Of a stretch of 64,000 nucleotides of DNA, positions 3,028 to 64,000 are shown in pieces. How positions within the stretch are numbered: position 1 is the first letter of the stretch; each line of letters starts with the position of its first letter. Under the pieces are notes generated by a model. It was given only the letters and a program-made list of their open reading frames with translations, searched no databases and had not been told where the DNA came from. The DNA is from Acholoe squamosa (Eukaryota; Annelida; Polychaeta; Phyllodocida; Polynoidae). The position numbers and the translations under genes were made by a program. The stretch covers positions 56,065,339-56,129,338 of the forward strand of contig OX439043.1 in the NCBI GenBank assembly GCA_949317995.1. The letters are read 5' to 3'.

Positions 3028-4056
3028 TTAATTTATTGATGGGTCAACAGCATTGTTTGGCTTGAGACCCAGAAGCTTACGAAAGGACACCCTAAAATCT
3101 TCACTTTTCCAGGCATAAATGAGTGGATTCAGCCATGTGTTAGCCCAATAAATCACTACAGTAAAAATCTCTACTTGGGACCAGAAAGTTGTGCGATTTA
3201 CTGACATGATAACTGTAGCGATAACCTGGGGGATGTAACAAATAAAATATGTGCCCAATACTGTGATCATCATTTTAGCTATTTTCTTTTGCTGGCGGTT
3301 CATTGCAGCTTCATAGGTATCATAGGGCTGATTCTGTGCTGCAATAGCCTGTCCCTGCTTATGTGCTATTCTGGCAATTGCAATATAGAAAGCAACCGTC
3401 AAAACAGCTACAGTTGCCATTTGCGGCAGAAAGATATTGACATATACGAATCTATTGAGAAAAACAGGAAATTTACATGTCATACCAATTTTCAACTTGT
3501 TTGCAAATACAAAAATTGCCGTCAATTCGGTTACAAGAATGATCCAAGTTAGACCAATGATGAGGAAGGTTTTTGTGCGATTGACCCAGAGCGGATAGCG
3601 AAATGGGTGGGCGATGTAGAAATATCTGTCTATGGCGATCCACAAAATGCTCATCAGGTTTGTGCCCACTGATATGACACTTAGTGTTTTATCAATAAGG
3701 CAGACTGGGATGAAGATATCACCATCAGGCAAGTAGTGGTGAATCATATTCAAAGGGGTCAAGCTACCTCCCAACATATCAGCTGCCGCGAGGCTACAAA
3801 TCAGAAAGTTAGTGGTGGTTTGAAGTTTTTCAAATCGGAACACTGCCACAATAGTGAGTAAGTTGCCAAAGATGGCAAAGGCAGAGAATATGAGTCTTAC
3901 ACTGAGGTAGATTGCCATGACGGAGGTGGAGACCAAGGGATGCTCATAGGTGTTGTTTGAAGTGAAGCTACTGTTGCCCATTCCTGCTGTAGTTACATTG
4001 GTGAAGTTGTGAGCCCACCGTGGACCTTCTGTGGCTAAAGCCGTGGTGTTCTCCAT
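3028..4056 (-). CDS. rhodopsin-class (class A) G-protein-coupled receptor, orphan
   Basis: A seven-transmembrane plasma-membrane receptor of 342 aa with its whole coding region in one exon. The N-terminal tail has five N-glycosylation sequons (N3, N17, N20, N28, N34). TM1 is about 45-73 with N65 (the GN motif), TM2 81-107 with D93, TM3 117-149 with C119 and an intact DRY at 143-145, TM4 161-185 with W171, TM5 203-230, TM6 258-284, and TM7 292-315 with NPLIY at 310-314. C194 in extracellular loop 2 can pair with C119. The TM6 motif reads FICYIP, so the usual toggle tryptophan is Tyr274. The start is the ATG at 4056: an upstream in-frame ATG at 4182 exists, but a good acceptor (CTGCTTTTTACAG) ends at 4074, so 4057-4073 is 5' UTR and the rest is intron. 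The tail is short and lacks a palmitoylation cysteine. The ligand is unknown; biogenic-amine or adenosine-like is only a guess. Confidence 0.93.
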   Translation of the reverse strand: MENTTALATEGPRWAHNFTNVTTAGMGNSSFTSNNTYEHPLVSTSVMAIYLSVRLIFSAFAIFGNLLTIVAVFRFEKLQTTTNFLICSLAAADMLGGSLTPLNMIHHYLPDGDIFIPVCLIDKTLSVISVGTNLMSILWIAIDRYFYIAHPFRYPLWVNRTKTFLIIGLTWIILVTELTAIFVFANKLKIGMTCKFPVFLNRFVYVNIFLPQMATVAVLTVAFYIAIARIAHKQGQAIAAQNQPYDTYEAAMNRQQKKIAKMMITVLGTYFICYIPQVIATVIMSVNRTTFWSQVEIFTVVIYWANTWLNPLIYAWKSEDFRVSFRKLLGLKPNNAVDPSIN

Positions 4057-4073
4057 ACTTGGAAGACCTTTTC

Positions 4074-4087
4074 CTGTAAAAAGCAGT
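4074..4087 (-). promoter_or_regulatory. 3' splice site in the 5' UTR of the GPCR gene
   Basis: On the minus strand a pyrimidine tract followed by ACAG|GAAAAGG lies 17 bases before the ATG. This indicates a spliced 5' UTR exon farther upstream (above 4182), which was not located. Confidence 0.6.
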
Positions 4088-4348
4088 ATGCAAAATGACC
4101 AAGATGAATCGAAGTTAGTAAAAAGAAACATCAAAGAAAGGTCCCCTGTATATATATAGCTTACAACCCTGTCCTCATACAATAACCCCGCGTAACTTTT
4201 TCTAAACTATAGTAAGTATTTTAGTAGATAGGCGATCAGTTTAAGGACTGGACGCCTTCACATATGAATACCCATGTCATGGGAAAGTTATGCTGGTTGG
4301 GGAATGGGCATGACAGTGTCACCATCGGGTAATAAGCATAGAACAGTC

Positions 4349-12431: not shown

Positions 12432-13182
12432 CAGGAGCTTAATTCAAAAGATCCTGGGATCACGACCCCAGCGATCTTAGGAATAAATCAGCCTTATCCT
12501 ATTAAGCGATCTTAAGAGTTGACTGGGTTCACATATCCTAGCCAGCACTAAGATCGCATCGATCTTAGCCTCAGCCCTCCTACACTATTCCTAGAATTAC
12601 TGACTGGGCACAGGGGTAAGAGTCCCAAAATAAAGGAATAGCTGTGGAGTCACTCTTCTTCACAAGAGTGCTTATACCATCGTTCCCCGTCCCCATATGG
12701 GCTAACAAAAGAGCACAGGGTGCAGTTGACCCCCGTACAGTATTCAAGAGTTGTTCCCATGAATGTATGATTTATGCTTGCCTATTAGAAGCATTGTGCC
12801 CTCCCCCCAGGACAAAGAGAGAGAAGGGAAGAATTACCTTACAGTGCACTTAATGCATGAGTAGCCCTAAGAGCCCTCAATGACATTCAGCAAACGTCCT
12901 CCCTCCCCTCTTTATGTATGCAGCAGGCTATTCACTCTTTCAATCAGGAGTGTTCCCTGTAAGTGCTCTTGTACCCTGGTGAAACCACTTTGCATTTCTT
13001 TCACTAAGATTGCAGTGATCTTAGTGGTGGAAATGGAATAGTGAAGTGATCCCAGGACTAGCTATTCTGGACAGGCCTGCAACCACTGCATTACATAGGG
13101 TAGACCAGCCAGGTATTATGATATGTGCCTACACTAAGATTGCTGGGGTTGGGATCCCAGGATCTTTTGAATTAAGCTCCTG
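12432..13182 (+). mobile_element. 751-bp TIR element, copy 1
   Basis: Both ends carry the inverted repeat CAGGAGCTTAATTCAAAAG followed by ATCCTGGGATC. Subterminal palindromic motifs of the type CTAAGATC/GATCTTAG occur repeatedly (for example near 12470, 12550, 13003), resembling transposase-binding repeats. A 69-codon frame (12644-12853) is conserved in the second copy but has no recognised motif. No target-site duplication is obvious. It is probably a non-autonomous DNA transposon of undefined family. Confidence 0.85.
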
Positions 13183-13310: not shown

Positions 13311-14062
13311 CTGGAGCTTAATTCAAAACATCCTGGGATCCCAACCCCAGCGATCTTAGTGTAGGCACATATCATAAGACCTGGCTGGTCTACCCTATGT
13401 AATGCAGTGGTTGCAGGCCTGTCCAGGTTAGCTAGTCCTGGGATCACTTCACTATTCAATTTCCACCACTAAGATCACTGCAATCTTAGTGAAAGAAATG
13501 CATAGTGGTTTCACCTGAGTACAAGAGCACTTACAGGGAACACTTCTGATCGAAAGAGTGAATAGCCTGCTGCATACATAAAGAGGGGAGGGAGGACGTT
13601 TGCTGAGTGTCCTTGAGAGCTCTTAGGGCTACTCATGCGTTAAGTGCACTGTAAGGTAATTCTTCCCTTCTCTCTCTTTGTCCTGGGGGGGGGGGGCACA
13701 ATGCTTCAAATAGGCAAGCATAAATCATACATTCATGGGAACAACTCTTGAATACTGTACGGGGGTCGACTGCACCCTGTGCTCTTTTGTTAGCCCATAT
13801 GGGGACGGGGAACGATGGTATAAGCACTCTTGTGAAGAAGAGTGACTCCACAGCTATTCCTTTATTTTGGGACTCTTACCCCTGTGCCTAGTCAGTTCTT
13901 CTTGGAATAGTGTAGGAGGGCTGAAGCTAAGATCGATGCAATCTTAGTGCTGGCTAGGATATGTGAACCCAGTCAACTCTTAAGATCGCTTAATAGGATA
14001 AGGCTGATTTATTCCTAAGATCGCTGGGGTTGTGATCCCAGGATGTTTCGAATTAGCTCCTG
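13311..14062 (-). mobile_element. 752-bp TIR element, copy 2 (inverted)
   Basis: This is the reverse complement of the copy at 12432-13182 along its full length, at roughly 90% or better by eye, including the internal 70-codon frame (13633-13851, minus). That frame diverges from copy 1 only after a C/G-run length change. The two copies are head-to-head with a 128-bp spacer, so 12432-14062 can fold into one long cruciform. Confidence 0.85.
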
Positions 14063-14449: not shown

Positions 14450-14986
14450 TAAATACATCCATGAATGTCTAAATCAAATAGAAAATGCTCTGAGGCGATA
14501 CATGGAAAGAAGGCAAGGGAGCTCTTGGGAGTTGAATGCTCTCTTTGCACATAGGCCTGTCTCTGGATTTATAAAAAAAAATATCTGTGGTCATATATTG
14601 ATGGACCTCGGAAGTATTCTTTAATAAACCGCACATTATGCATTATAACAGACACTAGTTAGTCCTCTTCTACAACACCGAGATATTTTCTGTCTCGTCT
14701 CGTTTGAGCTTCAAGCAAGACAAAGTCATATTTGTAGAGGGGGGTGTAAATTCCAGCTTGCATGTAGAGGTTTTAGCAGTTTTATTGAAGGTGTAGTGCC
14801 TTATTTGACTTAGGCATGCCGATGGTTGGAATTGGATAGAATTAATTGATCTCTATTTTTAAACTGGGAACGCCCTGTTATTTCAATTATCTATCAAGTG
14901 GTGTAGAATTATAAATGTGATGTAAGTACTCTGGTAGGCTATTATAAGGTCCTATTGATCACGATTCTTTTCCTTTACCCAAACAG
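14450..14986. other. 5' flank / intron of ankyrin-SOCS gene
   Basis: No coding signal is seen. The last bases before 14987 form a pyrimidine-rich 3' splice site ending ACCCAAACAG. The preceding exon was not located; it should end two bases into a codon. Confidence 0.6.
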
Positions 14987-17900
14987 CTTGATTGAGCTCA
15001 TCAAGACCGGAAATGTCCACCTTTTACGCCACGTGACTCGTTCCAGTCGCAACCGGAAGCAGGAGGCCCTAGACCTCGCGCTGCATGAGGCTATAAGGAG
15101 AGGGAGCCTAGAGTGTTTCCAGATCCTTCTACAAGGTGGCGCCAGCATCCATTCAGTGAACCTCTATGGGGAGACCCTTCTAACAACAGCACTGAGCAGT
15201 GGTAGAGGTGCTATGGTTGAGGCATTGTTCAGGGAGGGCTATCAAGTAGATCATAATGTAGGAAATAGTTTGGATACAGGGCAAATTGTGCCTCTCCAAT
15301 TGGCAATAATGCGAAATCAGCCTGAGATGGTAGAACTGCTTCTTAAAGAAGGAGCAAATACTGAATACTGTGATGTAGACAAAGACACTCCAATTATTAG
15401 TGCCACAAATGCAGAGTCCTTGGAAATTGTTGAATTGTTACTAAAATATGGAGCTAATGTCAATGCCATAGGGTTTGAGGGTAACACATCATTACATCGA
15501 GCTGTAGAATTGAACAATACTGGTCTATTGTCATGTCTTCTGTTTGCAAAACCTGTAGTTGATGTACATAATGAACAAGGCAACACTGCCCTCCTACTAT
15601 CTACTGAATTTGGATATGTTGAATGTGTTGAATCTTTATTGAGAGCAGGGGCAAACCCGGGTATAACAAATAATAACAATCAGAATGCCCTCCACTTGGC
15701 TGTTATAGATGGTAACATAGATATAGTAGCTTCGCTGCTCCACAGTTCTGACCTGGATATCAATGCTGTTGACCAGTCTGGGAACACTGCTGCAGTCATG
15801 GCTGCCTTCCTGAAACATGAACTTGTATGTCTGTATCTGATAGATAAGGGAGTAGATATCAGCATCCAAGGTGAATCAGGTCGAACTGTGATACACTGGG
15901 CAGCTGCTCATGGATTAATTGAGCTGCTCAGAGCCATTATCAAGCACCCCAATGTGAATGTTGATGTGGAGGATGCCAGCAAAGACACCCCCATTCTACT
16001 TGCTACTCAGGGTACACATTATGATTGTATAGGTCTACTGCTGGAGGCCTGTGCAGACCCATCCAAACAGGGATCAAGAGAATCCAACTGCCTTCATTGG
16101 GCAGCCTCAAAGGGGTGTCCAAAGGAGCTCCTCTATGTTATGCTGGATAAAGTTTGTGATATCAATGCTAGTGATGTTGATGGAGCAACACCACTTATTC
16201 TTGCCGCTAAATATAGAAGGTATTCTGCAATGCAAGAAATTCTTGATAGGGAAATAGAATGTGATTTGAATGTACAGAGCAATGATGGGAGGACTGCATT
16301 GCATTGGGTAGCAAGTCAAGGTTATCATGACATGGTCTGGCAGTTATTGAAGAAAGAGGCTTCAGTGGATTTAACTGATATCACCATGGATACAGCACTG
16401 CATTTGGCTTCCAAGGGCAAACATGCTGAGGTGGTAGAAGAGTTACTGAACTATGGGGCAAATTCCAACATAGTGGATTCCAAAGGAAGACTACCTTTGC
16501 ACTGGGCTTGTGCTGAGAACGACGTTGATGTTGTGAATGTACTTCTATGTGCCCCAACACAGTTAGACACAATAGATAAGGATGGTGATGCTGCTATTCA
16601 CTTAGCTTCTAGATCATACAATGAGTATATAGTGGAGGCTCTAGTCAAATCTGGAGCTGACTGCAATATCTTTGATGCCAGAAACAGAACTGCATTGTGT
16701 TATATGTCAGAAGCTGGAAAATTAAAAACAGTTGACTATTTGCTACAAGCAGGAGCATTCGTTGATTCTGAGAGGTTTAAAGCGACACCGCTAATCCAGG
16801 CTTGCAAGAAATGCCATGAGGATGTATCCAGGCTACTTCTGGATTATAGGGCATACACTGAACATGTTGATGAACTTGGACGGACAGCATTTCTGTGGGC
16901 TGTGGCCAAAGGTACAGAAGACACTGCAAGGAGCTTGGTTGAGCTGGGTACTAATACAAGACATTGTGATAAGAGTGGGGACACTGCACTTACCCTAGCA
17001 GCCTGGCATGGCCACCCTAATCTACTATCATATCTGATACCACTATCTGATATTGAACACAGAGAAGAGGATGAAGGAATGACTGCACTGCACCTTGCTA
17101 TTTGCAGGGAAAAGAAACAGTGTGTAAGCGTCTTGCTAGATGCAGGTGCCAATGTGATAGAGCTGAGCAGAACAGGAAATAATGCACTTGTGCTTGCTGC
17201 AATCCATACCTCAGGCCCAGATATAATGTCTTTGGTCCTGGACTGTGATCAGGATCTGGATCCTAATGCTAAGGGTGAGAAGGGTAGGTCTGCTCTACAC
17301 TGGTCAGTAGGGGACCCTGAGTCAGTGGCTGTCCTGTTGGAAAAGACACCTCCAGGGATATTGGAATTGAACACAGAGGATGACAATGGTGCATCACCCA
17401 TACTGCTAGCAATTGCCCATGGTCAACCAGAATCTGCCAGACTGCTTATTGAAGCTGGATGTGATCCAAACAAGCTACATCAAGATGGCAGAAGACCCCT
17501 GCACCACTGTGCCCTCTATGGAGATGCTGTAACACTAGAAATATTACTCAACAATGGAATTAGCCCAGATACACCTACAACAGAAGACAGAACTGCCCTT
17601 CTCATGGCCTCCATTGAGGGGAACATGGATATTGTGAAGCTCCTGCTACAACACAATTGCCGTGTTAATGATGATGACGCCTTAACACCTTTGTCAGCTG
17701 CAGCAGATCGACAGTTCCACGAAGTCATGGAACTGTTGTTGGAGGCTGGAGCTGAACCCGATACCATTGGGGAAGAACGGCATACCCCGCTGATGACTTG
17801 CACATTCCAGGAAGACCTTCGGGGGATGGAGATCCTGCTGAAGGCTAATGCTGATGTCAACCAGTGCATAGACTCAGGAGGAAACAGGCTCCTCCATGTG

Positions 17901-18206
17901 GCAATCATGAAGAGAAATACTGAGGCCCTGCTCCTGCTCCTGGCTGCAGGTGTAGGAGAAAACCATGTGAGACAGATAATAGCTGATGGTATCCTTAGTT
18001 ACTTTGTACAAAGCCCAACTACTATGGCAGGTCTCAAGAATGTAGCATCTACCCCAAGGCCTTTACAGCAACTATGCAGACTCTCCATACGAAGAGTTTT
18101 AAAGTTTCCACTAAAAAAGAAACTGGATAAGTTAGACCTTCCGGCCATGTTAAAAAGCTATCTTGCGATGAATGACATTGAAAAAGTCAAACTCTCAAGT
18201 GACTGA
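14987..18206 (+). CDS. giant ankyrin-repeat/SOCS-box (ASB-like) protein, 3'-terminal exon
   Basis: A single open exon of 1072 codons. The frame stays open to a TTG at 14955 but has no ATG start. A good acceptor ends at 14986, so the exon enters with one base completing a split codon and the N-terminus is missing. About 29 consecutive ankyrin repeats of about 33 residues fill almost the whole exon, many with the TALHLA or TPLLLA core and a LLxxGAN-type end. The last 50 residues form a SOCS box. The elongin-BC box is L-Q-Q-L-C-R-L-S-I (18063-18089, Cys codon at 18075), and the cullin-5 box reads LDLP-AML-KSYL (18132-18164) in place of LPLP. Family knowledge: ASB proteins recruit substrates through the ankyrin domain and bind elongin B/C and Cul5-Rbx2 to direct ubiquitination. 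Known ASBs usually have far fewer repeats, so this length is exceptional. The substrate is unknown. A plain ankyrin scaffold is the alternative if the SOCS box is inactive. Confidence 0.93.
18054..18170 (+). other. SOCS box region of the ankyrin-SOCS protein
   Basis: The encoded segment runs from PRPLQQLCRLSIRRVL to LKSYL. The BC-box pattern (L, then three residues, Cys, then three residues, aliphatic) is intact. The downstream Cul5 box keeps the second proline and the L-K-x-Y-L tail, but the first proline is Asp. The region follows directly after the last ankyrin repeat and a short linker, as in ASB proteins. Confidence 0.82.
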
Positions 18207-18215
18207 TATTTTTGC

Positions 18216-18790
18216 GATAAAATTTTTTTTTTCTTTTGTTGCATATCAACAGACATTAAATCTAATGTTATTACCAATGCAAATGAGAGTGTCAAGCATG
18301 TATACGCCAACTAGTCCAAATAATATAAAAATATTGAATGTGGATTGTTAGTATAACTACTATAGTGTACTATAATAAAAAATCATAATCTCATGGTTCT
18401 TCTTGCATTACTAGGCCTCATATTGCTTCCATCAATGTAAGGCCAATACACGTTTGGCGTTCTCTTACAGCCATTATAAAGAGGCAAAATTAAAGAAAAT
18501 TATAAAATGGTTTCCCAGGTTCTTTGTTTGCTTCTATACCTCAAAACAGTTCTGTATTGTTACCTGTGGTTGAGAAGTACAATCGTACCCCTGGGTAGTT
18601 TATAACTCTCTAAACCTCTATAGAATAACATATTTTTCTCCTCCCTAAGAAAATGAAGAGATTCTCTAGAGCTTCATCATAATCTATAGGGCTAGAATCC
18701 TTTGAAAAAAAAAAAACAACGTTCAGTCAAATAGGATCCCTCGTCATTTCCAGCATCATGTGTAGTTATAGTCCTGGATCTAATTCTCAA
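18216..18790 (+). repeat. 3' UTR duplication, copy 1
   Basis: Starting just after the ankyrin-SOCS stop, this segment is repeated at 19640-20315. Shared blocks include ATCAACAGACATT, CCAACTAGTCC, TGGTTCTTCTTGCATTACTA, CCAATACACGTTTGGC, AAGTACAATCGTACCCCTGG and CTAAGAAAATGAAGAGATTC. Indels and about 10-15% substitutions by eye suggest an old tandem duplication. Confidence 0.88.
18374..18379 (+). promoter_or_regulatory. poly(A) signal AATAAA (proximal)
   Basis: AATAAA lies 168 bases after the ankyrin-SOCS stop codon. The same signal in the same context recurs at 19848-19853 in the duplicated 3' UTR copy. Confidence 0.6.
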
Positions 18791-38900: not shown

Positions 38901-41900
38901 AATGCATTGTGTCTTTCTGCCATGATGCACTAACTCTATATACTGGCTATTCGTTGCTAAAAGATTCCCTGAAGATGGCCATCTAATCTCTGGTACTCGT
39001 TGGTATAATGGCGAGAAATAACTGTAGAGGGCAAAGAAGGACGCCACACCGGGACGCCATGCAGAACCCTTAAGTACTTGTACAGTAACATAATAAACAT
39101 CTATAGTAAACCTGCTGCTGCATTTTATTTCCTGTATTTGCTTTTATCTTCCCTTATGATTCATATTGCATTCACCCCTCGTCTGATATCAATTTCCATA
39201 TTTTAATAAACTGTAACGCTAATAAGGCCGTGAGAATACCTTTCCTTTTCCACCCCCGCACTGGAGGCGGCATGTGGGCGTCAACAGGTGCATCAATATT
39301 CATGAACCACCCAAAGGTTTTAACGTTAACACCTCTTCTACCACAGTTGGTGACAGTCCACCTACAGATCACATCCTACAGACCACCACCCTCATCGCTT
39401 TTCAATTTTGTTTCAATTACTTCTTTACAATATTGCTGTCTGTCGACATAATAAACCGTTTAAAGGTTACACGCATCCCTGTTTGTGTCGAATCCTAAGT
39501 TTAGGAAAAGCCATATGCCTGTAAATTGCTTTACAGTACTGTAATATAAATGGTTAGTGTAAAATAAAGTTCTATTTCATAGGATCCTCATGTTCCTTAC
39601 CAACCTTTTGCGATATCAAAAGAGTAGGAGTCTTCACTTGAGACCAACATTTTTTCAGCCTTAGCTCGTATACAAAAATCTTGTTTAATCTTAACCCCTA
39701 GGTGCCCAAGCGTGCTTTAAAGCGCGGTTTTGGGCTTAAATACATGTACATTGAAGGAAACTATCATCCAGATACTTCTACTGGTCCAATCTGCAAAGTT
39801 AGACTCTCTATAGAACGGCCATGACCTCCCCATCACAATACAACCATCCATTTTTCTCTATCACCATTATACCTAACACAGGAGTCAATATTTGAAAATG
39901 ATTCATTAGAGGGCCACCCTCCAGGGGGCTAAGACCAGACATGACACAATTATTACGCTAGATCATATACATCTAATGTCCCATACTGCCATTAGATTCT
40001 AAAAGAAATGTTCATATCCATAGAGATAATCCATGCATTGTTACTAGCACATTATGTCTCCTGAGTGGTAGTACACATATATATGCAGAATTGAATGAGG
40101 CCTCAGAATTACAGGTATTATGGATGTGGGGGACTATATAGTACACAAGAGAGACTAAATACTACCAATGACAGCAAATGGAATGTTTTAGAAACTATGG
40201 TTACCAAACCTGACCAATAAATTTCATGTCCTTAACTGAAAGTCTTCACTGAGTTATGAGTATTCAGGAAATGCAATACAGAGCTGATATCAAAAGATAA
40301 GATCAAAAAAACACATGGGCTTATTAACTAAGTTTGATTGATTGATTGATTGATTGATTTTATTTCAACAAAGCTACGCGGTTTACACAGCGAAATTTCA
40401 TCTTGTTGGAATTAATACAGTATGCAAGGGCTTAAAAGGTAGCCACAAACACTACGTACAAGGTATTGTCATGGTTATTTCACTGATTTAAATAACATAA
40501 GATCAGTAGCGATTGATGTAAGATCGATTTTTGGCTATATTCGACAAGGCAGGTATCTTCAACTTGGGACTCGAGATTTGGGGTGTAGATAATTTATCAA
40601 GAGAAGCAGAGGGGGGGCAGGACTGATGGCCTGAACCTATCCAAGAGATATGTTATAATGTAATCTATATAAATGTTGATTCTGTAATACGGTTGATTGG
40701 AGTGCAGGACTGATGGCCTGAACCTATCCATTTTCAAGTAAAATACAATCATGAAATAATAAAGAAATAAAGCAAAAGTAAGGATAAATCTTATTTACTA
40801 GTAATCCAATGAAATACATATAAGTATTGCTAAAGGAGGGCAGGACTGATATCCTGAACTTATCCCATATTTGTTTAATTATGTAATAGACAATAGTGAC
40901 ACTCTTATGACGATGTATAGGTACCTGTGTTAATAATAGTGGAAGATAGGCAGGTCTGATGATCTGAACCTGTCTAGGAGAGTCAAGAAAAACTGAATGT
41001 ACTATTTGTTTACAAGAGGTTGGCCCGTTGTTTCACAATACTAAAGTCTAGTTTGGCAATGGTTGTTTTAAAGTGGCTTTTGTTATCCATAAATTGTGTT
41101 TCTTTACTGAGTGAGTTCCAAAGAACCATGCCTCTATGTAGGGGTGATTTCCTGACTAATTGTAGTTTGGGGCGTTGGCTTTTGAATTGAATTTTTCTAT
41201 CACCTCTGGTACGTATATTTTGTACAGTGATAATGTTATCCTCGTCATGTGATAATTTGTACATAAGCATGATTAATTGTATGTCACGACGTTTGACTAA
41301 TGTAATACAATTGCACTGTCTATGAAGATCAATTTCAGAGATATCCATAGGGTTCCTAATTTTAAGGCAATCTCTCAATCCTTTGTTTTGTAGAATTTGT
41401 AGACTATCTTGATTGACCACACAAAGACTGTCTAGTATGAAACTACAATACTCTAATGCAGGCAAAATACAATGTTTGTAGATTTGCAGAGCTTCATCTT
41501 GATTGATTAAGTAACGAATTTTGTGGGATGTAAACAGTCTATGATGGCATCTCCTTTTAATAGACGAATAATAAGCCTTGTAGTTTAGATTTTCATCAAG
41601 GGTGACCCCTAAATAGCAGAAGGTAAGTTTGGTGTGAACTTCAATGTTGTCAATTTGGAGGGGTATAGGCTGGTGTAGGGCTGTCTTGTAGGGTGTTCCA
41701 AAGACAACTTGGACAGTTTTTTTCTGAATTGATAGTCAATCTATTTATAGCACACCAGTTTAGTACTATATCAAGGTCAGGTTGAGCCAGATGTTTTAGA
41801 TCAGCTCTGGTATTGGCTTCTGTCATAAGCACTGCATCATCAGCGTAGAGTATGATTTGGGAGTTTTCAACTAAGGTAGGCAACTCATTGATATAGACAG

Positions 41901-44900
41901 AGAAATGTAACGGTCCCAAAATAGACCCTTGAGGGACACCATAAAGAACATGTGTTAGGTTGGAAATTGAGTTGTTGGCTCTAGTCATGTGTTGACGAAA
42001 TTGTAGATAGCTCTTGAACCATCTTAGTAGAGACCTATTCGCACCTAATTCAGAAATTTTCATAAGTAACCTGCCATGATGGACTGTATCAAAGGCTTTC
42101 CTCATGTCTATAAAAAGGCATGAGGAAAGTTTGCCCCTATTGATATTTGAGTAAATGTATTGGGTTAGAGTATAAACAGCATCGGTTGTAGAGCGACCAG
42201 GAGTGAAGCCAAACTGATGTTTTGACAATTTATTATTATCAAGCATGTGATTTATCAATTGTTGGTGGACCACTCTTTCCATAATTTTACTTATGATTGG
42301 CAGTAATGTTATCGGCCTCCAGTTAGTAAGCTTATTTAAGTCTCCTTTCTTGGGAATAGGAATAATTGTGCCTGTTGCCCACTTGTCTGGGAAGGAGCCA
42401 GTAGTTAGGCTGCAGTCAATCATCGTTTTTTAAATGAGGAATTATTTCAGAGAGAAAATCTTTCATAATACTAGAGTTGACATAATCTACTCCAGAGGAC
42501 TTAAGTCTCTCAATCATACTGACATATTTTTTAACATCTTCTAGTAGTACTTCTCTAAAGAGGAAGTCCCCTTCGAGGTTTGCGGGGAGTTCTAGGACCT
42601 CATCCATGGAAATGTTGCCAGGATAGTTTTTAAAAGCTTTTGCTAGTTTTTCCCCAACTTGGCCATAGAAATTATTAATATAGTCTGCTGTCTTGTCATG
42701 GGTGACTGATGTCATTATCATCAATTAGGTGTATAGTACTATGTGTCTTACTATTGTTGCCTAAAATTGGATTTATATTATGCCAAAAAGATTTAGGGTC
42801 ATTTTTATATTTATTTAATGTGGCCCATACTCTGTTCCTATTTTCTTTGGTGATCTCTCTAGAAACCATGTTCCTGAGAGTCTTTGCACGTTGTGAGGCA
42901 TCAAGGTCCCCACCAAGCGTGTTGTGGGCTTTCCTGTATGCCTCTTTTTTCTGACGAATCAGACCTAAGATGTCATTAGTAAACCACCTCGGGGTGTCTT
43001 TCCTAATGTTGTAGGTTTTGATTGGACATTTATCATCAAGGAATTTTATTATATGCGACTCAAGAAAGTCCCAGTGAAAAGAGGGATTGTTGGCTGTATT
43101 AAAATCATGCCAGTCAATGTTATCAATAAAAGTCACCAATTCAGCTTTCTGGTAATCTCTATAGATTCTGCCAGTAACTTTTTCAATGATTTTCTTATGT
43201 CCCTGATGTTTAAGAACAATAAAGGTGGGAATGTGATCCGAAATGAGAAAATTTACTGTCCCTTGTAAAGCAATTATATTGCTATTAGAGTATATGTGAT
43301 CAATGTAGGTGGCTCCTAAGGGGTGGAGCCGAGAGGTACCAGTTTCAATCAACTTGAGATTATGATCTCTTAAGAGTCTAAAGATTCTCTTACATTTCCT
43401 GCTTTCTCTATGCACCATGTCGATATTACAATCACCTAGTATATGAATCTCATGTTTCCTTAGCGACCTATGTGAAATAGTATTCTCTAGGGCTGTAATG
43501 AAATTACAAATCGGTGCCCTAGGGGGTTTATAGCAAGTAATTACCGTTCTAATCCTGTTATTGGGCTTATTAGTGGTAACCACTAGTATTTCAGCGTCAT
43601 CAGTAATTAGTGATAAATCATTTCTCACTGAACTAAATAGGGCAAAGGGTTCACTTACATAGCATAAGAGTCCTCCAGCATGTCAGTCTCTACCTAGCCG
43701 GAATGTAGTATGACCATGAACCTCAATTTTGCTGTCACTAACTAAGTCATGTAACCAGGATTCACATACACAAATATAATCAAAATCTGTGAAAAGTTCA
43801 TTAATGATCTCGAGTCTATTACTTGCTAGTATGCTTCTAGTATTCATTCCTATCAGCTTAACCCCTTTAGTCCCAAGTATTGTGGTAATATAATTGTGAA
43901 ATAATGTAAAATCTTCAAATAATTCTGGGCACCAAAAGGTTAATGTCCAAAATACAGTTCCGTCAGGAGTGCCATTGCACCATTAAGTACCATGTAAGTA
44001 CCAGGTAATGCTAAGAGTCAGTCCCATACTTCTACATACCCTCTATCTGGTCAGCCATAGCTAACCCACCCTCTCCTCCCAATAGAGATTCACAACCCCA
44101 GAACATCACCTTTTCATGCCGATAGAATTAGTATATTAAACGTGAGCACTTAATGAGGATCAAGTACCGTGGTGACCTGTCTGCACCAAATCATGTCTGG
44201 TAATGTCCCTTTCTCAATGTCCTACATACCTGGTTAATCTGTGAAGCATCCCATAGTTTACTCTCTTCAAACCTTTAAGGGGCGCTGATGCATTAATGCA
44301 TCATGCCCATTGATCGTCATGATGCACCAATGAATTTATTGGAGCATGCCGACATTACGGGTTTGATACATATGTGGATCAACACGGTTAAGGGTACGCC
44401 CATGAGGGGGTGCGTGGGCGTACCTTTAACCGTGTTGATCCACATATATACTCGTGGAGGGTCGACATCAAGCTCCATTGAAGTGCTGGCGACCAATGGG
44501 CATGATGTATTAATGCATCAGCGGCCTTTAAAGGGTTAATACTGCAGACTGAAAATTGTACTGGACCTATTCACACAGTCAGGTGCTGCTTATAAAACAT
44601 ATAAGAACAATTTACCTTCCAGTTTGGTTTTTATTGATAGGTGTATACGGTCAAATCGAATCTCTCACAACACCTCTATGGACCTTTTGATGAAAGCACG
44701 ATGCCTTTAATAATGATGGTTTCATGTCTGTTTATCAATACAATGCACCAAGACAGTTTCATATAATCAGGTATTACGGTAATTGTAAAATTTCTAATAA
44801 CTCTTAACCTGCAATGCCTAATTTTCACTAATAGGGGTAGTCTGTGATATCATAACAAATGTCTGACAACGCCTCCATCAGTCCATGGGCCTTTTTTATG

Positions 44901-47900: not shown

Positions 47901-50900
47901 GATCTAGCCCTGTCGAAATAGATACCGAATTATAATCCGGTAATACACGATGGCACAGTAAATCCTATGGTTGCACTGACAACCTTTTTTTTCTCTTTTT
48001 ATATGCGATCATATTAACCGCCATCGGTCTATATGATGAATGAATGCAGCATTGGTTTAGTTGTTAGGGCTTTTATGTATTGTAAGGTTCCAAAATACTC
48101 CCAAAACCTCCAAATTATCTTGTGTAATTCCAGAAAAGGACTAAAATGAAAAGATAAATTTAACCTGTGCCGACATGTTTCGGTTTTTTCAAACCTTGGT
48201 CAGGGCTCTTTTTATTTTAGAGATGTGAGGGACTCTATTGCCTTTAGGAGCCTTATTCAGCCTTCATGGTTGCATAACATTCCATAATAAATAATTTGAA
48301 TGAGGTAACATGACAACATTTTCAAAAATGACTCCCAATCAATGGGAGTTGTATAGGAGAATAGTCCATAGACCTTTAATGTATTGTAATGACCATCACG
48401 ACACATGTCAAATAGGCAAAGTCGCCCCTAACTCGACCACTATGAATACTTCTCACAAGTATTCGGGGAATGTGCAATGCCTTCATATTGTGATTAATGG
48501 TATGCCATCAATCGACATTTATGTGCTATCTGAAGGAAGTTGAACCAGGTTGGTCGACTTAAGGTACCAACATGGCTAGTGGTCGAATCAGGTGCGCCAA
48601 GTGGATCACTTGATCTGGCACCTGGCGAGATTCTACAGTCAACACAGGGAGTTATCTGATTGGTTGATAAATCACTTACCACAGCTACGGCGGAAGCGGT
48701 GAGGATCTCGGGGGGAGAGACTGTGGTGAAATATGCAACATTGGCAAGGACATAAACAACGGTAACCAGGGTACAGGAAATGAAGATAGCGCGGGGGAGG
48801 TTCTTGTAGGGATCCTTCAGTTCTTCGATAACGTAATTCAAATAATTCCTGAAAAGTAGAAATAAATGTGATTATTTGTTCTGCAACTTTTAGATAGGAA
48901 ATGGCTTTGCTTAGAAAATGTTGACATATCAAAGAAGTATGTATTTTAATTGACACGTTTTTATAATGTTATCAGGTTTTATCTGAGATAACTGGTCCTC
49001 CATACTTTGATTTGTCGAATGTATTCCCACTCTACTGATGGTAGGAAACATGAAGGGTACACAATTCCTGCCATGCTAAGTAAGATCATTTATTTTCACA
49101 ATTTCAAGATAAGAATCTATTTAACGATACTGGTTAATAATGAAAGAAAATATATATTATTTCGTATAATCCAAATGAGTACATGTCTATATAATTATCC
49201 TTATGTATAGTTCCAATGAATATCAAAATGATATCATCAATTGGTTATCTACTATTTGAAACGGGTATCAAATACAACGACAAAGGGTGGCTGATTAATA
49301 GGGTGGTGGTCTTCGTGCTACCATAATCTCTCGCGTATAAGGCGCAGCTCACCTATAGGAGGTCTGTTTCACGTATAAGGCGCACCTCTAAGGGCAGATT
49401 TTTGTTAGTTTACTACTGTTCTATAGTAAAAATAGCCCCCTTATAAGGCGCACCCCAAACTCAAGGCAATGTCCCTCCCACGTATAAAACTCAGCAGCAT
49501 TTTGTTTGGCGTATAAGACGCGCCTTATACGCGAGAGATTACGGTACATGTTAACAGGTGCAACACCCTTATACACCCAGGAAGCATAATAAATGCTATC
49601 AGGGAGACATGGCAAAGCATTTCCCATCCAGATAAGGTGACAGATAAGCCATCAGTGATAATCAGGCTACATACCATCCATTATAAGCAAACAATCCTTG
49701 ATAGAACGCCAACGATAACGACCCAACATTCCATATCGTGTTTTTAAACGGGTCGTGAAAAGCTTCATGTTCTCCTGGAAATATAAGAAGATAACGAGAA
49801 TTGAATTATGATAAGATTTATCGATCTGAAAGGTGAACACTGCTTTTTGCATCATTTTATAATCTATGAGATACAGCCAAGATCTTGCGGTCTGAAGACC
49901 CACAGATTACATATTATACAGTATATTGTAAATCAGGCATGGGCAAAAATCGGGAAGCCATACATTTACTTGATATAAAAGCCTTCTATTCTTCCAAAAC
50001 AGCCCTCCTTATCACTCATTTGAGGAAAATACAAATCATTCAAAGTTTTAGAAATCAGGGAATCCTGATAAAACCTGAAGACTTACATCCTTGAATTTTA
50101 GATATTGTTTTATTGATTGCTTCGTTTCTCTAATACTCTGGTAAGAGATATTTAATTTTGATAGAAATATCCATGAGCACAACATTCTATTTTAAGGTCT
50201 GGCAGCGTTTCTACATCTGCCAAATCTGAATGGAGAAATAGTGGGGATAATAGTGTCTCTTGACCCTCACAAGTCAGATCTATAAGCTCCCTATAAGCTG
50301 CAATGTTGACTGATGCTGATTTAACCTCAGCAGAGAATTACACTCTGGGAGTTTGTAAGTACATGTATAGTGGGGTCACTGGCCAAAATGGTTCTGGCCT
50401 AGAATCGATCCTGAATACATAAATTAACATTGATTAGCCACTTGCTAAATCTCGAGCCGCCGTTCGGGCGAATTATTGCAAATCCGACAATTTAATTTAT
50501 CACAAAAGTATAGGAAAAATTGGGTCGGATTAGCAAAATTCCGTCCGACCGACAGCTGTGGAACCAGTGCTTCAGGTGGGTATTCCACTGCGTTGCCGGT
50601 GAGTGCGACCGACCGACATAATACTTTTACTATATCAAAAATTGGATTAGAATTACCCGCTTTATCCAATCTAAGAGTGCATTTATAAATTTCACCCACA
50701 GCAGAATCAATCCTCCCCAAAATGAAGCTGTAGCAGAGAGAGAATCAGGGATTCATTCTGCCCTAAGTACTTATTTGATGGATCAGGTACGTAATGTCCA
50801 TGTCAATGGGCCCCACACCACCCATTGTCAACTAAAAGCATTGGGAGGCGGCTACAGTCAGGAGGGACATGCATTTTGTATGTGGCCTGGAGTAGGATAG

Positions 50901-53900
50901 ACTAGACCTGGAGAAAAGACCTAATAATGATAACAAAGATCTATATGTCATATATGTATACTACCCTGGTATAGGTTTATTTTACGCTCTTCCTGGTCGC
51001 CCTAAGTAGGTTGAAGTAAATTTCTATTATCATGTTTTCATTCCTCTTTTCTATCATTTTTATTGCAACCGAATGTTTAATACTCAGATATCTGATACTC
51101 CCCTTGCTACAAGTATCTTTATGAGGAGGATACGTCTGCCATAGGTCTGTATCTGCAATAATCCTTTCTTTATTGAGCAGCACAGCGTTTCATCTGCCTC
51201 CAGCTAGTTTTAATTGTTTATTTCTGACTTTCTCTGTTAGCTCACTGCCTATCTCATGCTCCTTCACCTGTACCTGCATCCCCCACCCAGCCCTGCATCA
51301 TACTTCATATCTCAGTTGCGATAAGCACCACAAGTGGCATGTCAACAAGATCAGGAATGACGTGTAAACGGCATCTGCGCAATAACTTAGTTCCCAGGTG
51401 CATCATTAAAAGGTTCCATCAGCAGGAGTATACCCCAGACTCCTACCTCAGCGGCCATCACTACCTGGGGCCTGTTACGGCTAACTGCGCAGCATGAGCA
51501 GCTCACAGACACACCTGAATCACTCAGACACGCGCCTCAGATATTGCATGGTCTCCAGTGTCACTCTGTCCTCATCCGATCACCAACACCTATGGGCAGT
51601 GTCACAATGATATGAATGGAGACTATTCTATTCCCCAGTCTTCGTTCTATGACTGATGACAATATCAGCACTACAAGTCACCCTCAATTCTACACAACTG
51701 GTGCCTTAACATCCAGCTGCCCTACCCTATTGATGCCTTAATCCTTTCAAAGCCGCCTGAACCTAGACTGCAGTCTTATCCCCCTAGGCCTTATCCCTTT
51801 GGGCCATCCCTTTCCTACCCATGATGCTATATATTCAACCAGTAACTACTAAACCCTTCCCTACCCTGCACATTACAAATTCTACACAACTGGTGCCTTA
51901 ACCCTTCCCTACCCTGCGCATTACATAGTCTATACAACTGGTGCCTTAACCCTTCCCTACCCCCACAATACTTATTCTACATAACTGGTGCCTTAAGCCT
52001 TCCCTCTGCATATTCTACACAACTGGTGCCTTAACCCTTCCCTACCCTGCGCATTACATAGTCTATACAACTGGTGCCTTAACCCTTCCCTACCCCCACT
52101 ATACTTATTCTACATAACTGGTGCCTTAAGCCTTCCCTCTGCATATTCTACACAACTGGTGCCTTAACCCTTCCCTACCCTGCGCATTACAGTCTATACA
52201 ACTGGTGCCTTAACCCTTCCCTACCCCCACTATACTTATTCTTCACAACTGGTGCCTTAAGCCTTCCCTCTGCATATTCAACACAACTGGTGCCTTAACC
52301 CTTCCCTACCCTGCTCTCTACATGTTCAACACAACTGGTGCATTGACCCTTCCATCTAACACAACTGTTGCCCTTGCAGTGATGAGATGGGGGCGGGCTG
52401 CCTGGGGAGCCCTAAGTACAGGTATTGATCACTGACAGGTCAGGTTTGTAGACTACAGGAGGAGAGGCGAACCCAGACGTGGCAGCATTAGCATCTCGTT
52501 ACTGGTAAGATGCTACATGAGGTGGGCACTAACAGCCAGTCTATCATCACTGTAACAGTCACTCTACCATCACTGTCTACAGTAATAGAACAGCAATGGA
52601 CGAACTGCATAAAACAACAGCATTACTAGAAGTACTGGGTGTGCAGTCTATACCGACCTAGCGGATTGTCCAACGGACGCCGCCATTGCTGAAGCTAGTT
52701 GCCAGCTCTTATCACTGATAACAGCTATCTGATGGGTACTACTGCCCCCCCCCCGAGAGGACCGCAGTGAATAGCTGGTGATATTGCATTGGCTGATTAT
52801 CAAACCAGCTAAGTCGGAATATGAGCTGCCATGTGATATTATTCCCACAGCAGTGATTATTGGTTTGCTGTTGTATACATGCATTAGTCTACTGTTACTA
52901 TATTGAATAGAGTAGTCTGGGTCTAGGGGAGGTGAGGTCTGATAGGAGAGTCTGTAGGTCTTGTAATGTCAATGTTAGACTACATGGGATTACATGAATA
53001 TACCAGCATGCAGACAGGGCTGGGTGTAAATCACAGACGGCATGTGATACCGGCACAACCTCATAAATATTGCATATAATATCTAACCTGGAGATATGCC
53101 TCCCCTGGTGTTTATTAAGGCGAGCAGGTGCAGGTCTGACTACTACATGTAATATTAATGGGAAGTCTATTGTATTCCTAGACCACTTGAGTAAATGAGG
53201 GAATTGGAAGGAGGGACTCAGTGACTGAGTTCATTGTTAAAGTGGGGATAGGGTATTTTATTTGGAGTTAGACTATAGGAATTTATACAGTTTTATATAC
53301 CGATATGGGGCTTATTATTTGTTGCGTGACGAGAATGCTCAAGCACCCAACACCTTTGGGTTGACTCTTGTGGCGGAAGAGTGGAGAGTGTAACAATCAA
53401 TCTCAATCATCAACACCTGAGAGCCTTTCCCACCCTTCTATAGCTACTCCAGCCTTTAAATACGACTACTGCTGTAGTCTACTTAAAAGGCATTGGATGA
53501 ATGTGGCTGAAATGTACACAGGTCAGGGCCAGCCAATCAGACAGACTTTTATAAAGCTTCCTACCTTCACGTAGCTACTAATCTCATATCTGTTAATGGA
53601 CATCACCCTCATCACCCACCTCTGCCAACCATGGAGGAACATGGAGAATTCCTTCCTGTCTACAACTACATACGACCACTCCAAATAAAAGTTATTCTCA
53701 TCACCAAGCAATGAAAAATGTGATGAGTGAGAATTTTATTTATCTATTTCTTTTTTTATAAGCAGTTGATAAAGATAGAAACCCCTGTATCACGGTTGCC
53801 TGCAGGTAAGAAAAAAAATGCCTTTTAAAAGTAAATTATCATTAACATTTAAAATTCATAGCTTGCTGCATTGCTGGAGCCCTAAGCTTTAATATGATAC

Positions 53901-61085: not shown

Positions 61086-64000
61086 CTGAAATAAAGCAAA
61101 GTGTGGGTTAGAACAGTCTAGGTTGGATTTAAAACTTTCTATTACTAAAATAAAGCAAAAGATTTATACATAAACCTCCATGTTCATAAACATATCAATC
61201 AAGTTGTTTATTCAGAAATATCCATACTAAAAGCCATGTATACACTATTATGTACAAATAGCTTTTCAATTCATGCTTTTCGCGACGTTATCTGCAAAAG
61301 GCTTTGCAACCGTTACTGTAAATACATGTAATTTTACCGATAAAAGCAAGAGATCAAGATAAGCGTCCGAATCATATACATAAACAGCTGGTATCTTGTT
61401 GACACAGGTAAGCATCAAAGCTATAGACTACCTTCTTTGACCATTGAGCCACTGTTCCCTAGTCCAACTTCTGATACACTCATTGTACTTTGAGACCTAT
61501 TTTTATTTCATCACAATGATTACATGAGAAAACGGATTATGTTCCACATGTAACGGGTCTTACATAGGATATTTATTATTGTTCATAATAAAACCAAGAT
61601 CTATAGGTGGCTTTTATGTTTCTCTTCCTTTCCTTTCTCATTTTCCATTATCATATACTTAATTTCTGAGATGTTTCTAATACGGTCAGTACAGATATTT
61701 AAAGTGAAAATATCCAAATTTCACATGAAATTTCAAAACTCATCGGCCAGTTAACAAGCGTATTATTGTTAGTACAGTATATGCCTATACTTGGCAGACC
61801 ATGGACCTGGGCACATATTCCATTACATTATTTTCTCTATTTTGACCAGTGGTACTGTGGCCGTTTGAGACCATGGAGGGAGGGGGGTATTATATAATGG
61901 GCTGAGCGGTAGGAAATACGTGCCAATACACATCACACTTCCACATCCAGTTTAAGCCCTTTTCAGCCCACATGATGCTTTCAGTTTCATTACTGTATCA
62001 CCATGCATCATCTCCATCCTTTTGGGAGGATATCAAACTGATATTGATACATAAATGCAGATATGATTGATGTCGAGTTATGACATTATCTCTGTGGCTA
62101 TATCCATGCATTCTGAAGAGGTGTACAATATATGAAAGCATTATGGACTGCCCCTTAAGGTTACCGGCATTATTATAACCTGCCCAACCATGCACACTAA
62201 CCTCCTTTCCAGTACACTACTATATAGGTATGTATGGCAAGTTTTATTGAAGGTGACTTTTTTTAATTGAAGGGGGTTAGGGTTGGAAGGAGGGGTCTTA
62301 TCATGATACCCTGTTATGAAAGTTTTGAGCAGATTGCATGATTTATTTAGTTGATAAGCCTAATCAGATCTTTCTCTCATCCCATCTTGCTGTTGGTGTA
62401 ACATCAACGAAAACATTATTCAAATATGAAATATGGTTTAACGGTTTGCGATTTTAACTTACTCCCTTTACAAATTACAATTTAAGAAAAGTGATCATCC
62501 ATAAAAATAAAGGAAAAATCAATGTGATGGTCCATTCAATATCAGAGCTATAGAATCTAATTAAAGTTTTAACATGAGGAAACAGATTTCACTGGAACAA
62601 TGATTTCATGTAGTAGTGTACTGGAATCCACATGTTATCATGTATAGAGTAGTGACACCTGGTGTCTGGACGTTACGTCACGGTGGGAAGGTGTCACAGA
62701 TGTCACAGATTATAACTCTGGGAGATATCAATCCTGTAAGTTCCCACAGTTCACCACCATCACCATATGGTTATTACATACACCATAGCCTTGTAACAGT
62801 ATTAGGTATAGGGGGTAAAAGGTCAGCTTGTACATGTAGTCTTATTTGTGGCCATTTTGAAGTGGTAGGGGTGTACTGTCGAATGAAATAGGGGACACAG
62901 TACGGGTACGTTTATATATGGCACGTCTGTTACATTGAAGGTTTTAATATCCTATAAAATATCTTGCTGGTTAAAATGCTGATAAAAGCATAGAAAGTCA
63001 TTTGGGTTCAAATTCCTATCAATCAAAGCCCGTTACAGCAGCTTACATGATAAAAACTATGAACGTTATAAGCACAGAACAAAAATCATTTTAAATCATG
63101 TTAGAAATTGACATCAATTTCTGTAATTGATTCTTTAGTTGTATTTGAAGTTATCTGTGTAGTCTCAAAAACAGTGAATTCATGAAGTGTGTATACGCTG
63201 GTCTTACAGCAGGGCAGTATGTATGTGGACCTCACCTTAGCTACAGACCCAGTAGTCAGTGTGGACATGACCTCACCTAACTTACAGACACTGTGGTCAG
63301 TGTGGACATGACCTCACCTAACTTACAGACACTGTGGTCAGTGTGGACATGACCTCAACTGACCTACAGACACTGTGGTCAGTGTGGACATGACCTCACC
63401 TAACTTACAGACACTGTGGTCAGTGTGGACATGACCTCACCTAACTTACAGACACTGTGGTCAGTGTGGACATGACCTCAACTGACCTACAGACACTGTG
63501 GTCAGTGTGGACATGACCTCACCTAACTTACAGACGCTGTGGTCAGTGTGGACATGACCTCACCTAACTTACAGACACTGTGGTCAGTGTGGACATGACC
63601 TCAACTGACCTACAGACACTGTGGTCAGTGTGGACATGACCTCACCTAACTTACAGACGCTGTGGTCAGTGTGGACATGACCTCACCTAACTTACAGACG
63701 CTGTGGTCAGTGTGGACATGACCCCAACTGACCTACAGACACTGTGGTCAGTGTGGACATGACCTCACCTAACTTCAGACTCAAGATGTCATTGACATCC
63801 ACATTTTTCCGATGACGATTATTGCGATTTTTATTTTAAAGTATTTGGAAAGTGTATAGATGTAAAAAGAAATGGTGACAATTATAGATGAATATCTAAA
63901 GCTGAAGTGGGGAGGGGTTGGGGCAGGGGTTATCATCTATGGATCTACAGGCACAATATTATCAGCTGACACTTTGGGAAGAAATGTCTTTGGAGATAAT
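61086..64000. other. 5' part of SLC7 intron; no exon found
   Basis: The minus strand was searched by eye for the conserved SLC7 TM2-TM4 motifs (for example CYAELG or GGEY-type) and none was found. The remainder is AT-rich, apart from the 41-bp minisatellite at the right edge. Confidence 0.55.
63257..63780. repeat. 41-bp minisatellite with AAB higher-order repeat (123 bp)
   Basis: Thirteen units, starting every 41 bases from 63257 (63257, 63298, 63339 and so on), each beginning CAGTGTGGACATGACCTC. Type A continues CACCTAACTTACAG and type B continues AACTGACCTACAG. The order is AAB AAB AAB AAB A, so the true period is 123 bases. Some A units share an ACGCTG variant. A diverged unit precedes 63257. 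Confidence 0.97.

Follow-up and report, generated by a model that had tools for sequence, protein, structure and literature searches.

A long ankyrin-repeat protein with a SOCS box and a two-repeat alternation in the genome of the polychaete Acholoe squamosa

Results

The window (the whole stretch of 64 kb that was analysed) is part of contig C9 of the 1.48-Gb genome of Acholoe squamosa, which comprises 63 contigs. At positions 14987-18206 (+) it contained a single unbroken coding exon in which base 14987 completes a split codon and is followed by 1072 codons and a stop. The stop-to-stop frame around this exon (14907-18206, +) was 1099 codons long, and the chance of an open frame of this length was about 1e-23 by an arithmetic estimate that assumes equal base use. 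The exon was preceded by a predicted splice acceptor with a pyrimidine-rich tract (14947-14986, +), ending in CAG at 14986 and with C or T making up 80% of the 20 nt that precede the AG. Residues 1-26 of the encoded protein (14988-15065, +) probably represent the remainder of a further repeat or cap started in the previous exon. The earliest in-frame methionine was residue 76, within repeat 2, so the start codon would lie in an upstream exon. A search for this first exon returned no candidates with a stricter donor filter and 10 with a looser one, none of them convincing, although both filters were crude. Downstream of the exon, an AATAAA at 18374-18379 (+) is a possible polyadenylation signal, going by its motif, and ATTAAA motifs occurred at 18255 and 18489.

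Elsewhere in the window, one open frame at 3028-4206 (-) encoded a Rhodopsin-family GPCR (7tm_1, 3.2e-35), and a piece of an amino acid permease was found at 48494-48871 (-) (AA_permease_2, 2.3e-8). The region 41010-43982 (-), which resembles a decayed non-LTR retrotransposon, carried a reverse transcriptase at 41653-42429 (RVT_1, 8.1e-37), with adjoining open frames that matched no family. There were two tandem arrays, with 3.6 copies of a 133-bp unit at 51879-52353 and 13.5 copies of a 41-bp unit at 63228-63780. Upstream of the ankyrin-SOCS exon, a peptide encoded at 12620-12853 (+) was nearly identical to one encoded in the opposite orientation at 13633-13875 (-), and the pair suggests a mobile element with long inverted termini.

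In the Pfam scan of the protein (threshold E of 10), Ank_2 matched with an E-value of 1.6e-152, Ank matched 24 stretches, and SOCS_box reached 5e-11 over residues 1049-1086 of the 1099-codon frame. The SOCS_box score was 43.1 bits for the whole frame and 49.2 bits for the C-terminal tail alone, against a cut-off of 23.5 bits, in line with the SOCS box claimed in the initial annotation. Delimitation by hand yielded 29 contiguous ankyrin repeats over 968 residues (aa 27-994; 15066-17969, +), with a mean length of 33.4 and a two-repeat alternation, which bears out the roughly 29 uninterrupted repeats first read from the sequence. A profile made from these 29 hand-cut repeats recovered 29 as well, a result that is circular for this protein itself. 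The last repeat was followed by a linker (17970-18050, +) that resembles, by alignment, the part of ASB7 (8y1u) just upstream of its BC box, and then by the SOCS box (aa 1022-1059; 18051-18164, +), with the BC box LQQLCRLSI and the CUL5 box LDLPAMLKSYL. An ankyrin solenoid followed by a C-terminal SOCS box is the architecture of ASB proteins, as had been proposed for this exon.

The motifs printed for ASB9 are L-X-X-L-C-R (BC box) and L-X-phi-P-X-X-phi-X-X-Omega-L (CUL5 box) (PMC7280518), Omega (aromatic) being our interpretation of the printed {W}. LQQLCR and LDLPAMLKSYL fit these two motifs, and the tail aligned with ASB7 in the PDB (E 0.0015), with which it shares a PR.LQ.LCR..IR pattern; the elongin-BC box is intact, as claimed at the outset. 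Weaker PDB matches of the tail to ASB9 (0.056 to 0.097), SOCS1 (0.22) and ASB8 (0.83) were not significant. The tail differs from those of ASB9 and ASB8 in that similarity fell below significance, while the L-x-phi-P form of the CUL5 box is shared with ASB9.

A recently silenced or misassembled copy of the gene, without a working protein, would account for a first exon that was not located with the two donor filters, and it would sit well with the inverted, mobile-element-like sequence upstream. Set against this are the intact 1099-codon frame, intact BC and CUL5 boxes, the good splice acceptor and the downstream AATAAA motif, and we consider such a copy very improbable.

A SOCS_box profile search of the genome produced 439 candidates, of which 150 were scored and all 150 were above the cut-off, giving at least 150 SOCS boxes on contigs C1 to C18. 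The same search of 14 control genomes gave matches in two and none above the cut-off. When nine further relatives were scanned, a SOCS box above the cut-off was found in L016 and L021, neither of which is among the 150 listed, so the true number exceeds 150; boxes below the cut-off were found in L005 and L011, and none was seen in five of the nine. Ankyrin-matching frames were present within 1.5-kb flanks at 22 of the 30 top-scoring SOCS loci, the ankyrin-SOCS gene of the window included. Four of the remaining eight were scanned, and comprised two SH2-SOCS proteins and two without another domain above the cut-off; the recovery of SH2-SOCS genes served as a positive control and indicates that the search was sound. 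Of the 150 scored SOCS boxes, 88 fell in open frames of at least 300 residues, and among 10 long frames scanned, all seven taken from the SOCS list combined ankyrin repeats with a SOCS box. Human ASBs number 18, and over 80 SOCS-box proteins had been reported by 2015, according to the figures given in PMC4403949.

Some SOCS loci formed tandem sets with identical box scores (e.g., C12:8439557, 8441605, and 8443654). Unlike these, the protein encoded at 14987-18206 has no close paralogue in the genome. Its best-scoring genomic match reached 31% identity over 340 residues, with 100.8 bits compared to 2412 for the self match, and the top identity among 76 genomic matches was 42%, over 127 residues. 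Four stretches in viral contigs matched a pattern, and none was a relative. Marker searches gave eight matches to C1q and none to the molluscan haemocyanin domain or the annelid erythrocruorin linker; these two negatives came without a positive control and are not evidence of absence. Giant or expanded invertebrate ASBs were not recognised among titles and abstract starts in the literature, a partial coverage that does not imply their absence from print.

The CUL5 box read LP[LIV]P in 25 of the 30 top-scoring SOCS boxes, a sample biased to consensus since these were the best-scoring of the 150. The other five read LxLP, with T, H, C, Y or, in the present protein only, D. In the PDB tail alignment, ASB9, which recruits CUL5, read LVLP at the same site, so proline at position 2 is not obligatory; Asp at this position is unusual, yet by itself no argument against CUL5. 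The initial annotation had suggested that LDLP might weaken or shift the choice of cullin. That LDLP is a minority state holds, but the concern itself is weak given the ASB9 residue and the fit of the other positions to the motif, and LDLP considered as a defect is weak on the same grounds. The protein could alternatively be mainly an ankyrin scaffold that binds elongin B/C, with LDLP recruiting cullin-5 poorly or recruiting another cullin, and hence no working CRL5 receptor. The rarity of Asp (1/30 top boxes, the protein itself, with another non-proline residue in 4/30) agrees with this, as does the mention of ASBs in complex with cullins 1, 2, and 4 (PMC7672578). However, ASB9, with Val at that position, is described as assembled into a CUL5 ligase (PMC7950132; PMC7280518), and the remaining CUL5-box positions of the protein fit the motif; a scaffold that is not a functional CRL5 receptor is improbable, if less so than a silenced copy.

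By open-frame length, the ankyrin-SOCS gene was second of the 150 scored SOCS loci (1654, 1099, 995, 948, 852, 836, 813, and 751 residues, then 690 or fewer). The longest, L061 (C2:1672900-1678350), has an ankyrin-SOCS frame of 1654 aa at L061:306-5267 (-) on contig C2. It resembles the present gene in having a long ankyrin array and a SOCS box within one open frame, and differs from it in its greater length, in insertions between repeat blocks and in a CUL5 box of LPIP. With a permissive profile, which was trained on the protein encoded at 14987-18206 and so favours it, repeat counts were 35 for L061, 29 for this protein, 23 for L010, 20 each for L003 and L063, 16 each for L005 and L064, 15 for L062, 10 for L065, and 8 for L066. 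Under a strict count, in which only repeats with at least 20 aligned positions were kept, the protein stayed at 29 and L003 at 20, while L061 fell to 22, L010 to 18, L005 to 13, L063 to 11, L064 to 9, and L062 to 7. The protein was then first of 17 frames tested, followed by L002 with 27, in whose own frame a scan found no SOCS box. Besides the gene itself, the comparison took in L003 and six more long frames; the other 142 listed SOCS frames, at 690 residues or fewer, could accommodate no more than about 20 repeats within a single exon. Ranks by repeats and by length both concern single open frames. The description of the arm as exceptionally long thus stands by the strict repeat count and fails against the longer frame and higher permissive count of L061; unique length was not borne out by this survey of the protein's own genome.

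Among the top PDB sequence matches of the protein were the long solenoids of ankyrin-1/2 and NOMPC. These are membrane-cytoskeleton and channel proteins with 24 to 29 repeats, and they are not known to have a SOCS box. The 29 repeats found here differ from the 4 to 11 given for five ASBs in one table (PMC2942773), which agrees with the earlier statement that vertebrate ASBs have fewer.

Repeats of the protein separated by even lags were more alike than those separated by odd lags, whether compared by BLOSUM (difference 0.231, p = 0.0002) or by identity (difference 0.025, p = 0.0014). Mean repeat identity was 27% at lag 2 compared to 23% at lag 1, and because the lag-2 value is only 27%, the duplications are old. 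Odd repeats had Arg at position 4 in 7/15, His at position 8 in 11/15, and Trp at position 9 in 6/15, whereas Trp at position 9 occurred in 0/14 even repeats. Six LHW-type sites started at aa 302, 369, 438, 504, 635, and 770, with spacings of 67, 69, 66, 131, and 135 residues, i.e., two or four repeats.

Parity was tested on strict repeats (at least 20 aligned positions) in 17 open frames. Period 2 was detected in the protein encoded at 14987-18206 (p = 0.0002), in L003 (p = 0.0005), and in L005 (p = 0.022); in the remaining 14 frames p never fell below 0.14. Period 4, a multiple of 2, had p = 0.013 in the protein and p = 0.0002 in L003; period 3 had p = 0.0007 in L018 and p = 0.049 in L002. 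In contrast to the present protein, L061 was without two-repeat alternation (p = 0.17 in the permissive set, 0.85 in the strict set). The periodicity may also set the protein apart from ASBs such as the human ones.

Comparison across proteins revealed a two-repeat register common to the protein, L003 (C1:46.29 Mb), and L005 (C1:67.65 Mb), with p = 0.0002 for each of these two out of nine partners and 0.23 or more for the other seven. Both relatives have fewer repeats, and L005 (682 aa; L005:661-2706, contig C1, -), with four LHW sites spaced 65, 67, and 67, differs further in a SOCS box of 21.3 bits, under the cut-off. These patterns are consistent with a subfamily in which the three proteins would share common descent from a two-repeat block, and a two-repeat unit, shared with at least two relatives, seems to have been the starting point for the growth of the solenoid.

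Discussion

The protein encoded at 14987-18206 is a long member of a known ankyrin-SOCS family, which has very many genes in this genome. A new feature is the alternation along its repeat array, in which two repeats form the unit (p = 0.0002). It has the domains of an ASB protein in the expected order, with intact motifs in an unbroken frame, and many similar genes occur in the same genome. Judged by its sequence, it most probably serves as substrate receptor in an elongin BC-cullin-5 ligase and is a long representative of the ASB kind, and we infer that it is expressed, binds elongin and cullin, and brings about ubiquitination of its substrates.

Since the protein ends in a SOCS box after an ankyrin array, it probably picks targets for destruction. 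Elongin B/C would dock on the SOCS box, which would also engage cullin-5 with RBX2 through its CUL5 box, and the 29-repeat solenoid would offer one or more substrate sites. If it resembles those of ankyrin and NOMPC, a solenoid of 29 repeats presumably makes about one superhelical turn. In ASB9, the substrate is described as sitting on the N-terminal repeat (PMC7280518). A far N-terminal site in the present protein would be displaced along the superhelix, so that the site would have either to lie closer to the SOCS box or to be carried back by the superhelix.

A broader reading is possible, and we offer it as a tentative one with low confidence. The genome may hold a greatly enlarged repertoire of SOCS-box receptors (at least 150, many of them ankyrin proteins), including very long solenoids built from duplicated multi-repeat blocks. 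The ankyrin-SOCS gene would then belong to a subfamily with a two-repeat polymer, in which odd and even faces differ and form a periodic surface where substrates that are large or repetitive could bind.

With a working SOCS box, the protein would have a substrate arm far longer than those of the five ASBs in the table of PMC2942773. It could then be tested here how far from the cullin a substrate can lie, and whether recognition is the role in which repertoires of ankyrin-SOCS proteins expand. The two-repeat periodicity hints at the way in which solenoids of this kind lengthen.
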